Shown here piece after piece: positions 1 to 59,895 of a DNA stretch of 64,000 nt; within the stretch, counting starts at the first letter, position 1, and each line of letters opens with the position of its first letter. The notes beneath the pieces are model-generated. The model saw only the letters and a list, made by a program, of their open reading frames with translations. It searched no databases and was not told the origin of the DNA. Source of the DNA: Pseudobutyrivibrio sp. (lineage in GTDB: Bacteria > Bacillota > Clostridia > Lachnospirales > Lachnospiraceae); contig NZ_SVEV01000016.1 of the NCBI RefSeq assembly GCF_015057185.1, positions 1 through 64,000 on the forward strand. The letters are read 5' to 3'. A program made the translations under genes and the position numbers.

Positions 1-930
1 CTTTGTAAAGAAATATTAATACCAGAGCTACGCAAGAAGCTCATCTATGACAATTGCGCAAGCCTCAAAGGTAGAGGGATTGATATGCAGAGAGACAGAG
101 TAGTGGTACACCTGAAAAGATATTATGCCAGGTATGGAACCAACGAAGGATATGCATTGTTCAGTGACTTCTCGAAGTACTTTGATAATATAGATCACGA
201 GTTGCTCATCAAAGAGATGGGAAGAGTAATCAAAGACGAAGAGGTACTGAAAGAAGTGCAGCTCATTCTTGATGCATATAAGATAGATGGAAGTAAACTG
301 TCAGACGAAGAGTTTGAGCTTTGCAAGAATGGAGTCTATGACTCGAATAAATATTATCGAAATCCAAAACAAGGACCTGAACGTTATATCAATAAGTCAG
401 TAGGTATTGGCTCGGAGCTGTCGCAGATAGCAGGAGTATATTACCCGACTAGAATCGATAATTATGTAAAGATAGTCCGAGGCTGTACTGAGTATGGCCG
501 ATACAATGATGATTTTTACATCTTTCACCCCGATAAAGAATTCTTACTTGATGTATTTGAAGGCATAAAGGCAATAGCAAAAGAATTGAAGTTGCATATA
601 AACGAGAGAAAGACAAGGCTGGTCAAACTGAACCAGCCTTTTGTATTTCTAAAAGTTAGGTATCACCTAACAGAAACAGGCAAGGTTCCTCGCTCGTATA
701 CGGCAAAGACGTTCATCAGAGAACGAAAAAAGCTCAAGAAATTCAAAAAGAAACTCGATGCTCAAGAGCTGACGATGGAAACAATTGAGGCTCAATATCG
801 TTCCTGGAGAGGTCATGTTATGAGATGCCGTAACAAGCAGAGCAAGAATGCCAAGCCTATGTATAGTAACTGGAAAGCAGTTCAGACAACTGACAAGCTT
901 TTTAAAGAACTTTTTGGTTATTTACCATAA
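1..930 (+). CDS. prophage reverse transcriptase (5' end outside window)
   Basis: RNA-directed DNA polymerase. The frame is open from base 1 (LCKEILIPELRKKLIYDNC, then ASLKGRGID), so the gene starts upstream and the ATG at 85 is internal. Visible RT motifs are FSKYFDNID (motif with the first catalytic Asp), GIGSELSQ at about 403-426 and the catalytic box YNDD at 502-513, a variant of the usual YADD/YMDD. The S-Q pair after the glycine motif is the variant seen in diversity-generating retroelement and related phage RTs rather than the QG of group II introns. There is no maturase or HNH domain at the C terminus, only a basic thumb-like tail. It lies in the tail/lysis region of a prophage. It could be a DGR RT or one of the unassigned phage defence RTs; no template or variable repeat can be seen in this window. 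Confidence 0.85.
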   Translation, partial: LCKEILIPELRKKLIYDNCASLKGRGIDMQRDRVVVHLKRYYARYGTNEGYALFSDFSKYFDNIDHELLIKEMGRVIKDEEVLKEVQLILDAYKIDGSKLSDEEFELCKNGVYDSNKYYRNPKQGPERYINKSVGIGSELSQIAGVYYPTRIDNYVKIVRGCTEYGRYNDDFYIFHPDKEFLLDVFEGIKAIAKELKLHINERKTRLVKLNQPFVFLKVRYHLTETGKVPRSYTAKTFIRERKKLKKFKKKLDAQELTMETIEAQYRSWRGHVMRCRNKQSKNAKPMYSNWKAVQTTDKLFKELFGYLP

Positions 931-4492: not shown

Positions 4493-4507
4493 TAATGAGT
4501 AAAAATT

Positions 4508-4588
4508 TCTGTAGCTGTCAAACTCTAGTTTTACAGGAAGGAACCTGCAGTGACTGTAGATGACACTAGGTTTGATAGCGTAACAGAG
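4508..4588 (+). promoter_or_regulatory. structured RNA leader element, copy 1, upstream of dhaK
   Basis: This copy diverges most in its apical part but keeps the frame of the element family found at 5631, 57815, 59794 and 63474. Outer stem TCTGT/ACAGA (4508-4512 with 4583-4587) is followed by TCAAAC/GTTTGA (4518-4523 with 4570-4575) and CTAG/CTAG, and the 3' strand carries the shared GTAAC just before the outer arm. The inner part contains a CAGG/CCTG hairpin. It ends 31 bases before the dhaK start, so it may set dhaK expression separately from dhaLM. Confidence 0.55.
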
Positions 4589-4618
4589 AGTATTTAATCA
4601 CTAGGAGGAGGTTAAATT

Positions 4619-5630: not shown

Positions 5631-5727
5631 AGCCAACTGTAGGTAACAAGCTCTGGGGTTTCTCAAGCAAAACATTTTGTTGAGCTGAGAAACACTCAGG
5701 CTTGTTGCCGTAACAGTTGGCTTTTTA
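5631..5727 (+). terminator. structured RNA element, copy 2, acting as terminator after dhaK
   Basis: Outer stem GCCAACTGT (5632-5640) with ACAGTTGGC (5713-5721) is followed by TTTTTA, so this copy has terminator form. Inside it keeps GGTAACAAGCTCT on the left, a GTTTCTC/GAGAAAC hairpin and AGGCTTGTTGCCGTAAC on the right, nearly identical to the leader elements of cysS and pgk. T-rich sequence on the opposite strand suggests it could also end the converging minus-strand operon. Confidence 0.75.
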
Positions 5728-41794: not shown

Positions 41795-42426
41795 TCCCAC
41801 CCCAGTGCTTGCAGGGAGGTTATTTACCACTGGCCCCGCCTAGGGACACCTGCCCGCCCCCCTGGTGGAAAAACAATTTCGCGAATATTCTTAGTTTTCC
41901 AATATGCAAAAGGGAGCATCCCGCATGTGTCTTTCTATGGATGAACTATTTTGAAAAATGTATTTTTGTTTGGCGGACATATTAGTTTGTTTAAATTGGT
42001 ACAACTCAGGTCTCAAGGGGAAATTGGGCTCATATTACGTTCACCAAGAAAAATCACAAAGCTGGATTATCATATATTGGCACCGTGCTTTATACGACAT
42101 CGTGTCGCGTGTCGCACTTGCGCCGCCGTCCTAGCGGCGCATGCCAATATATTGATAATCCTGCTTTTATTTTTCTAGGTTCACTTAAAAATCGCCCAAT
42201 TCCCCCTGAGCCTGAGTTGTACTAATTTTTTATTTTGTGTCCACCCATAAAATACCTTTTTCAAAATTGTCCAGACATGAGAAAGACACATGCTAATAAA
42301 AGATGCGAGTCTTTGCATATATGGAAAACAGAATATTCTTGCGAAGTTTTCCACCAGGGGGGGGCGGGCAGGCGTGCCTAATCGGGGCCGGTGGTGCATT
42401 GAAGGGGTGCAAGCACTGGGGCGGGA
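41795..42426. repeat. long imperfect palindrome of about 630 bp
   Basis: Left arm 41795 to about 42090 and right arm about 42142 to 42426 are reverse complements with many matching blocks, for example CCCAGTGCTTGCA, CCTGCCCGCCCCCCTGGTGG, CATGTGTCTTTCT, TTTTGAAAAA, GTACAACTCAG, GGGG-AATTGGGC and GATTATCA-ATATTGGCA. The centre holds two small hairpins, CGACAtcgTGTCG and GCGCCGC/GCGGCGC (about 42120-42141). No transposase or plausible gene is inside; short ORFs in the arms have no ribosome sites. Parts are much more GC-rich than the surroundings. It could be a decayed MITE-like element, an inverted duplication or a large folded RNA. Confidence 0.85.
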
Positions 42427-57814: not shown

Positions 57815-57899
57815 GCAGGTAGGTAACAAGCTCTTATGCTTCTGCGCGAATCGTTTTAGATGAGCAAAGAAGCTATAAGGCTTGTGACCGTAACCCTGC
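57815..57899 (+). promoter_or_regulatory. structured RNA leader element, copy 3, upstream of cysS
   Basis: Outer stem GCAGG/CCTGC (57815-57819 with 57895-57899), then GGT/ACC, an A bulge, ACAAGC/GCTTGT, and an apical GCTTCT/AGAAGC hairpin whose loop holds GCGAATCGTTTTAGATGAGC, almost the same as in the pgk copy. GTAAC occurs before the outer arm. It ends 18 bases before cysS. It is not a T-box, which cysS genes often have. Confidence 0.7.
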
Positions 57900-57916: not shown

Positions 57917-59332
57917 ATGTTTAGGTTTTATAATACTTTGAGTAGAAAAGTGGAAGATTTTCATTCGAATGAGGAGGGTAAGGTAGCAATGTACACTTGC
58001 GGCCCTACTGTTTATCATTTTGCACATATTGGAAATATTCGTACATATATCATGCAGGATGCACTTATTAAATCGCTTGAGTACGCAGGATACGATGTTA
58101 AGCGTGTTATGAACATTACAGACGTAGGACACCTTTCAAGCGATGCTGACACTGGTGAGGATAAAATGGTAGCTGGTGCAAAGCGTGAGCACAAAACAGT
58201 TATGGAAATTGCAAAGTTCTATACAGATGCATTCTTTAAGGATTTTGATGCAGTTGGCAATAAGCGTCCAGACGTTGTAGAGCCGGCAACAAATTGTATT
58301 CCTGAGTTCATCCACATGATTGAGACACTTATTGAAAAAGGCTATGCATATTTAGCTGGCGGCAATGTTTACTTTGACACAAGCAAGCTTTCAGATTATT
58401 ATGTATTTTCTTCATCAGTTGAAAAGGAAGCACTTGAGGTTGGTGTTCGTGATGATGTAGAAGAGGATACAAACAAGAAAAATAAAACAGACTTTGTACT
58501 TTGGTTTACAAAATCAAAGTTTGAGGACCAGGCTCTTAAATGGGATAGTCCTTGGGGCGTAGGCTACCCAGGATGGCATATTGAGTGCTCATGCATTTCT
58601 ATGAAGCACCTTGGAGAGTATATGGATATTCACTGTGGTGGTGTTGATAATATTTTCCCACATCACACAAATGAGGTGGCTCAGTCAGAGGCTTATCTTG
58701 GACATAAATGGTGCAACTACTGGTTCCATAGCAATCACCTTAATGACCAGTCAGGAAAGATGTCAAAGTCAAAGGGAGCTATCCTTACAGTTTCTGTTCT
58801 TCAGGAAAAGGGATATGATCCACTTGTATACAGATTCTTCTGCTTACAGTCACATTATCGTAAGCCACTTGTATTCTCTTGGGAGAATTTGGACAATACA
58901 GTTCAGGCTTACAATAAGCTCGTTAAGAGAGTATCTGAGCTCAAGGCAGAGGGTGCAGTAGATGAGGCTGTTAAGAAGGAGTTTGAAGAAAAATTCTGTG
59001 AGGCAGTTTCAAATGATTTGAATACATCTATGGCTATCACAATTCTCTATGATGCCCTTAAGGCAGATACAAATGATGCTACTAAGCTTGCACTTGTAGA
59101 AAGCTTTGATAGAGTTCTTTCCCTTGATTTGATTGGTCATGCAAAGGCTCTTGAGGCGGGCAATGAAGTAGATGCTGAGCTTGAGGCATTCATCAATGAT
59201 GCTATCGCTCGCAGAGCTGAGGCTAAAAAAGCAAAAGACTTTGCTACAGCGGATGCAATTCGTGATGAGCTTTTAGCAAAGGGTGTAGAGATTAAAGATA
59301 CTCGTGAAGGAGTAGTATGGAAGCTAGTTTAA
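57917..59332 (+). CDS. cysS: cysteinyl-tRNA synthetase
   Basis: A 471-residue class I aminoacyl-tRNA synthetase. Motifs are YTCGPTVYHFAHIGN (HIGH and the first zinc Cys), IDIHCGGVDNIFPHHTNE (His zinc region) and GKMSKSKG (KMSKS). Start is ATG 57917 with AGGAG 7 bases upstream; the longer in-frame ORF from 57860 falls within the structured leader. It overlaps mrnC by 16 bases and leads the mrnC-rlmB-sigH group. Confidence 0.97.
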   Translation: MFRFYNTLSRKVEDFHSNEEGKVAMYTCGPTVYHFAHIGNIRTYIMQDALIKSLEYAGYDVKRVMNITDVGHLSSDADTGEDKMVAGAKREHKTVMEIAKFYTDAFFKDFDAVGNKRPDVVEPATNCIPEFIHMIETLIEKGYAYLAGGNVYFDTSKLSDYYVFSSSVEKEALEVGVRDDVEEDTNKKNKTDFVLWFTKSKFEDQALKWDSPWGVGYPGWHIECSCISMKHLGEYMDIHCGGVDNIFPHHTNEVAQSEAYLGHKWCNYWFHSNHLNDQSGKMSKSKGAILTVSVLQEKGYDPLVYRFFCLQSHYRKPLVFSWENLDNTVQAYNKLVKRVSELKAEGAVDEAVKKEFEEKFCEAVSNDLNTSMAITILYDALKADTNDATKLALVESFDRVLSLDLIGHAKALEAGNEVDAELEAFINDAIARRAEAKKAKDFATADAIRDELLAKGVEIKDTREGVVWKLV

Positions 59333-59757: not shown

Positions 59758-59793
59758 TGGAGCTTTAACAATAAAGTATATTAGAAAGTGTAA

Positions 59794-59882
59794 GGGAGTA
59801 GGCGATAATTATTTCCCTGTTTTTCGAGAGTATAGTGAAAACGATGAGAAAAACAGGGGGAATGATTGTAGCCGTAACTCCC
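59794..59882 (+). promoter_or_regulatory. structured RNA leader element, copy 4 (divergent), upstream of rlmB
   Basis: Outer stem GGGAG/CTCCC (59794-59798 with 59878-59882), then GGC/GCC, and a long hairpin CCCTGTTTTTC/GAGAAAAACAGGG. The GTAA before the outer 3' arm is kept, while the ACAAGC stem is replaced by AATTATT/AATGATT. It ends 13 bases before rlmB, which has only a weak GTAGG ribosome site. Confidence 0.6.
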
Positions 59883-59895
59883 GTAGGTTTGTAAA

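Follow-up and report, generated by a model that had tools for sequence, protein, structure and literature searches.

The NEMIS/Correia, ERIC and RUP elements are described as MITE-like small repeats, intergenic hairpins of about 100 nt in about a hundred copies, and for those that are cotranscribed an effect on the mRNA is proposed (PMC2229807). BOX, RUP and SPRITE of Streptococcus pneumoniae occur genome-wide with extensive predicted RNA structure and can occupy the 5' and 3' parts of operons, as reported in PMC3049150, where they are treated as sequence families (HMMs). REP/GTAG palindromes are intergenic and have a GTAG-like junction (PMC3733652), and the repetitive hairpin-forming elements of sponge mitochondria are reported as recurrent invaders of intergenic regions (PMC2800124). 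Riboswitches and other cis-regulatory leaders have a covarying fold and conserved unpaired positions and are often located just 5' of a gene. The double-hairpin elements of fungi are said to be hairpins that recurrently invade intergenic regions. The element described here, a hairpin of about 90 nt from Pseudobutyrivibrio, is a new, unusually structured variant among the small interspersed hairpin repeats: its many copies are dispersed between genes and patchy at orthologous sites. It resembles NEMIS/Correia, ERIC and RUP in size, location and copy number, yet no target duplication was seen, no related insertion sequence was identified, copies are nested and fixed loops sit on almost free helices. 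As BOX, RUP and SPRITE it is spread over the genome and structured, but it keeps the fold rather than the stem sequence. The REP-like junction differs in that the tag is paired, in an element of about 90 nt that has no link to a Y1 transposase. From the sponge and fungal invaders of intergenic regions it is set apart by its bacterial chromosome, its conserved internal loops and its strong covariation, and from the similarly folded leaders by a lack of a common gene set, by antisense and 3' copies and by little conservation at orthologous sites. We consider it probable that the element is a genus-specific, high-copy, non-coding interspersed hairpin repeat which is under RNA-level selection and turns over at its tips.

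The window, a stretch of 64,000 nucleotides (Pseudobutyrivibrio sp., assembly GCF_015057185.1, contig NZ_SVEV01000016.1), contains five copies, all on the + strand and at the places given in the initial annotation. The copies and the parts of the one before cysS are:

4505..4591, + strand: copy before dhaK, 59.3 bits
5633..5721, + strand: copy after dhaK, between convergent genes, with a T run after the outer stem, 85.3 bits
57813..57901, + strand: copy before cysS, 82.4 bits with model R1 and 86.4 bits with model R2
57815..57819, + strand: left arm GCAGG of the outer stem of the cysS copy, pairing with CCTGC at 57895-57899 (fold, covarying helix 1)
57820..57821, + strand: TA, the 5' side of the near-invariant TA/GTAA internal loop (98/106 copies) in the cysS copy
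57826..57831, + strand: ACAAGC of the cysS copy, pairing with GCTTGT at 57880-57885, the basal stem under the exchangeable tip
57890..57894, + strand: GTAAC of the cysS copy, the 3' side of the TA/GTAA internal loop
57900..57919, + strand: GGATTAGGAG, a likely ribosome-binding site, and the cysS ATG at 57917
59792..59885, + strand: copy before rlmB with a variant tip, 57.7 bits
63472..63561, + strand: copy before pgk, 94.2 bits

The gene at 57917 was assigned to cysS by the Pfam family tRNA-synt_1e. The folds proposed for the five copies were reproduced, with z values against 200 dinucleotide shuffles of -4.3 (4505), -9.4 (5633), -5.9 (57813), -7.7 (59792) and -6.4 (63472); not one of the 200 shuffles equalled the native fold at any of these places. 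The short stems were as annotated, GGT/ACC before cysS, AGT/ACT before pgk, GGC/GCC before rlmB and GGT/GCC after dhaK, as were the bulged A, the ACAAGC/GCTTGT stem, the 3' GTAAC and the loop common to the cysS and pgk copies. Two of the five differ from the shared layout: the rlmB copy has an ATAAT/ATTGT stem and a different tip, and the copy 5' of dhaK has a TCAAAC/GTTTGA stem. The tip of the rlmB copy belongs to another type, TTTTTTGAG-AGTATAG..., which replaces the common tip at window 59792-59885 and in L034:233-381, L040:2413-2512 and L243:2496-2590.

A family of five members had been proposed. The five stand, the family is far larger: the 3.25 Mb genome (62 contigs) holds at least 110 covariance-model matches at E ≤ 1, of which 109 reach E ≤ 1.4e-4, and more copies are possible, as 150 of 883 first-look candidates were scored. 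The first model, R1, was built from nine copies, of which five came from the window and four from a pattern search of the genome. It served for the 110-match search, for the bit scores listed without a model name and for the alignment A6; its outer stem was shifted by one column, and the pairs are correct in R2. Neighbourhoods were fetched for 108 of the 110 matches, leaving out C34:64625 and C7:33714, and two extra copies in the fetched loci (L076:581 and L034:233) bring the scored set to 110. A6 comprises 106 rows from this genome, without the two copies of L076, L040:2413 and L034:233. Recent identical copies were not found in this genome, where the closest pair is 92 % alike. At L076:581-745 a copy of 165 nt has an additional hairpin inserted in its tip.

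The order of parts is a variable outer stem, a UA/GUAA internal loop, a 3-bp stem, a purine mismatch (A/G in 52 and A/A in 21 of 106 copies), a CAAGC/GCUUG stem and, above it, a bulged U, a 5-bp stem and a hairpin. The unpaired positions are near-fixed (the loop in 98/106 copies, the bulged U in 104/106) and the helices vary. A conserved fold with changing stems had been suggested from the five copies and is strongly borne out by the larger set: the A6 structure has 30 pairs, 94.6 % of its 3148 cells are paired, and 27 of the 30 pairs show changes on both sides, with 747 double-change cells where shuffles have 200.5; the covariation score is 0.631, as compared with 0.171 when shuffled and at most 0.100 when slid. 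These values are favoured by the way A6 was made, by fitting to a model whose structure is almost this one. Ten pairs outside the pattern constraint were counted in 177 distinct copies from own and related loci, collected by a plain pattern instead of a covariance model and non-independent among related copies; they gave 1682 Watson-Crick, 33 G-U, 1 A-C and 54 other cells. In A6 itself G-U outnumbered A-C by 111 to 29, and by placement by 65 to 20 in sense, 19 to 5 in antisense and 21 to 3 in convergent copies. This excess of G-U over A-C means that selection acts on the plus strand in single-stranded form; RNA is the simplest candidate, single-stranded DNA being also possible. Since the loops are fixed on nearly free helices, the plus-strand fold is what is kept. 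The helix modules are weakly related to each other: Mantel r ranged between -0.05 and 0.23 in the full set of 106 copies and reached 0.32 in sense copies. They are not fully independent, since for several of these low correlations none of 500 permutations gave as high a value; this is the case for the outer arms and the CAAGC stem (r 0.17, 0/500) and, in sense copies, for the outer arms and the 5-bp stem (r 0.23, 0/500).

With genes called by a simple script, no gene contained any of the 110 scored copies, and the overlap of seven copies with a gene end amounts to 2-25 nt. Between codirectional genes 68 copies were sense and 19 antisense (p 1.2e-7), and the others were located between convergent genes (15), between divergent genes (3) or beside a one-sided neighbour (5), so that 34 of 110 had an antisense or convergent placement. 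Forty-four of the 72 copies preceding a + gene end 10-27 nt from the called start. Transcription as part of operon mRNAs is thus probable for most copies, which have sense orientation and a start codon shortly downstream. A stop codon lies within 25 nt of the copy end in 14 of 19 antisense and 12 of 15 convergent copies. Copies before + genes have in common the flanks TTTAAAT-GAGC and GCGGA-TAAAG; beside convergent genes the copies are flanked by an A tract and a T tract. Outer stems of at least 8 bp occurred in 10 of 17 convergent-type copies against 6 of 72 before + genes, and TTTT runs in 5 of 17 against 3 of 72. Of 20 downstream proteins scanned 19 had Pfam matches, among them FabA-like, acyl transferase, OMP decarboxylase, DHFR, DHDPS, RF3, SmpB, HypA, SMC and DNA polymerase III alpha families, and a common pathway was absent. 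Hiding of the SD by pairing of the flanking arms was marginal in copies before + genes, where 11 of 200 permutations were as strong (antisense 4/200, convergent 27/200).

As far as sampled, the element is confined to Pseudobutyrivibrio. Model R2 found copies in 23 of 24 other genomes that we infer to belong to this genus, from one to at least 106 copies each, and in none of the 16 genomes that represent other genera of this order. Across 200 genomes sampled from the family, searched with stricter filters and 21 scored candidates per genome, matches were restricted to two Pseudobutyrivibrio genomes (0 of 198 others). A pattern scan of named species genomes gave Pseudobutyrivibrio for all loci among the matches listed, 80 of 105, so that other genera are possible in the remainder, and viral contigs had no match. 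One own copy (L021:1501) is matched letter for letter by a copy from a P. ruminis record (L168), and the flanks of the two agree at 97-98 %. The genome without a copy (G020) is 83 % complete and the most different from that of the window among 20 compared; its divergence together with its lack of copies points to a gain within the genus. The initial annotation could not match the element to a named riboswitch, and Rfam likewise gave it no name: no family scored above threshold on a copy in the window or in 20 copy loci, and permissive scans of two stretches returned microRNA families only, far below threshold (best E 0.008). The literature searches gave no paper on such a hairpin family in Pseudobutyrivibrio or Butyrivibrio. 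A match to a known repeat or transposon family with random placement had been named as evidence against a functional RNA; the copies do behave as an interspersed repeat, they match no named family and their placement is non-random.

At orthologous sites the copies come and go. Of 20 relatives, 2 had a model hit before cysS and 10 before rlmB; in other relatives there were short stems, a different hairpin enclosed by the same outer stem, or a stop codon beside the SD. Before dhaK 4 of 12 relatives had a copy, two a right-end relic, one a short stem and five nothing. The pgk gene was located in 3 of 20 relatives, each with a copy, and four further loci with a partial pgk (L231, L235, L237, L239) had none. 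Over 42 own sites the related loci scored 66 present, 60 short and 16 other; these are loci L125 and later, with L097-L124 left out, and they overlap between genomes and are thus non-independent. Where a copy is shared, the memory of the site is weak. At 1 of 29 shared sites, one with flanks 98 % identical, none of the 106 candidates was closer than the orthologous copy, whose median rank over the sites was 20. In 25 pairs with flanks at least 88 % identical, several of them from the pgk site, the median copy identity was 0.71 against 0.67 for random own copies. Identity of at least 0.85 was retained in 9 of 141 same-orientation orthologue pairs, and in 27 of 168 pairs the two copies pointed in opposite directions. 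L246 and L247 carry wholly different rlmB copies between closely similar flanks, with 14.5 % of fourfold sites differing; at the pgk site, L195 and L230 have flanks 94 % identical and share the arms and the basal stem, while the tip is different throughout. Chimaeric orthologue pairs with like base and unlike tip did not exceed chance (8 of 141 against 80 of 800 random pairs), thus the argument for tip exchange comes from single cases. Among own copies, 16 pairs have tips at least 90 % identical; the 3-bp stem is common to one of these pairs and the outer arms to one.

Five of 268 distinct copies, sought in the same orientation, are nested in the tip of another copy. An extra right half followed a copy seven times and an extra left half preceded one three times in this set. 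Tandem extra right ends (GTAAC..GCGGACT) lacking left partners follow a full copy in L028:1591-1650, L145, L169 and L224. A search for empty hairpins with a matching outer stem found none. Bare mini-stems with any loop numbered 86 against 42 in reversed sequence; those with a GTAA loop were too few to use (2 against 0).

The initial annotation took the element for a leader RNA that governs dhaK, cysS, rlmB and pgk in response to a broad growth or metabolite signal. A cis-regulatory leader, either a riboswitch or a protein-responsive attenuator, would have a very wide regulon, with gain and loss of copies as regulon turnover. The strong RNA-level covariation, a conserved fold on the transcribed strand, the sense bias and the short distance of many copies to the start codon would suit it. 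It is at odds with about 100 copies beside unrelated genes, the absence of a shared pathway downstream, the antisense and convergent copies, including the one at 5633 which sits in a convergent terminator, the patchy hits at cysS, rlmB and dhaK orthologues, and the marginal SD pairing in sense copies. We regard such a leader as quite improbable. Ordinary terminators or chance look-alike hairpins would account for the long stems and T runs of convergent copies, but hardly for fixed loops common to 106 copies, for fold scores of E ≤ 1e-4 at 109 places, or for sense copies which precede start codons and have T runs in three of 72; the common loops refute this reading, which we find scarcely credible.

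High copy number, intergenic sites, palindromic form and site polymorphism are also what a MITE would show, a defective derivative of some DDE-type insertion sequence, moved by the transposase of the latter, with the RNA fold as a by-product of the terminal repeats. TA is found near both core ends, and TA termini are reported for several MITEs (PMC2229807). Direct repeats of 4-8 bases, in any register, never rose above permutation in 110 copies, and the excess of 3-base repeats (24/110 against a permuted maximum of 16) lies inside the arms; fixed loops on free stems and the preference of G-U over A-C are unexpected for DNA-level terminal repeats, and near-identical copies are absent. A MITE origin is thus unlikely in our estimate. 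A REP family whose movement depends on a REP-associated tyrosine (Y1) transposase, with the GTAG/GTAA of the 5' junction as the REP tag, agrees with the GTAR junction and with the high-copy intergenic palindromes described in PMC3733652. We judge it very unlikely: the first base of the tag, G, has a pairing partner in 98 of 100 scored cells and the fourth base in 105 of 106, and the element has about 90 nt against 20-40. Y1_Tnp matches occurred in 10 of 29 genus genomes and were not found in four genomes with 71-99 copies (G011, G012, G016, G018), and the eight Y1 loci fetched held no copy of the element. A missing Y1 gene is weak evidence, because transposase genes and REP families are reported to be without obvious correlation (PMC3733652). 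As a candidate partner, the reverse transcriptase family RVT_1 was rejected: it occurred in 15 of 29 genomes and was not found in the copy-rich G011, G013 and G016. A mobilising enzyme was thus not identified among the Y1 and reverse transcriptase families in the 29 genus genomes.

In the reading as a hairpin repeat under RNA-level selection, the near-fixed unpaired parts would be the probable recognition target of some cellular factor, and the helices would mainly need to pair. New material may enter at the hairpin tips, where a whole copy can sit in another copy's tip, and the part above the CAAGC/GCUUG stem appears replaceable as a complementary unit, by tip insertion or by conversion from another copy. 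Paired arms replaced between similar flanks are hard to obtain stepwise, so a joint copying of both arms is simpler. A bolder version, doubtful but worth stating, is a structure-guided mobile element that would spread by insertion of copies into the tips of hairpins already in place, terminators or other copies, the target stem becoming the outer stem, and whose tips would be exchanged with both arms rewritten at once. Nested and terminator-held copies fit such a tip insertion; because an empty target with the same stem was not found and the outer arms are weakly related to the core, we put it forward conditionally. If true, it would be a hairpin-targeted spread in which the RNA fold is kept and the sequence is not. 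The effect on neighbouring genes would be on mRNA processing or stability at operon joints rather than ligand sensing; by analogy to NEMIS and ERIC, as described in PMC2229807, such an effect on operon mRNAs is likely.

Neither Rfam nor the literature searched has a name for this repeat family, which fills operon joints in a common genus of the rumen. Its case warns that leaders may covary strongly without being gene-control RNAs. The hundreds of natural copies, with the same loops on nearly free stems, constitute a natural experiment for loop-binding partners, and the wholesale change of stems with pairing kept between close relatives bears on the evolution of palindromic repeats.

Further observations concern other parts of the sequences. 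A divergent reverse transcriptase is encoded at window 85-927 (+ strand), at the left edge of the contig (RVT_1 42 bits, best PADLOC E 7e-16), and G015 has a similar weak match to it. A second hairpin family of about 140 nt has fixed ACTTAG/CTTAGTAC blocks and variable outer stems and uses some sites in common with the element. It was seen in L018:74-109, L088:2713-2746, L232:654-687, and before cysS in L238 and L242; a strict pattern matched it six times, in 5 of the 29 genomes of the genus, and Rfam gave no match. A palindrome at window 63353 loosely resembles this second family. On the - strand, window 42032-42191 is a TwoAYGGAY RNA (RF01731) with 50.7 bits at a gathering threshold of 43.
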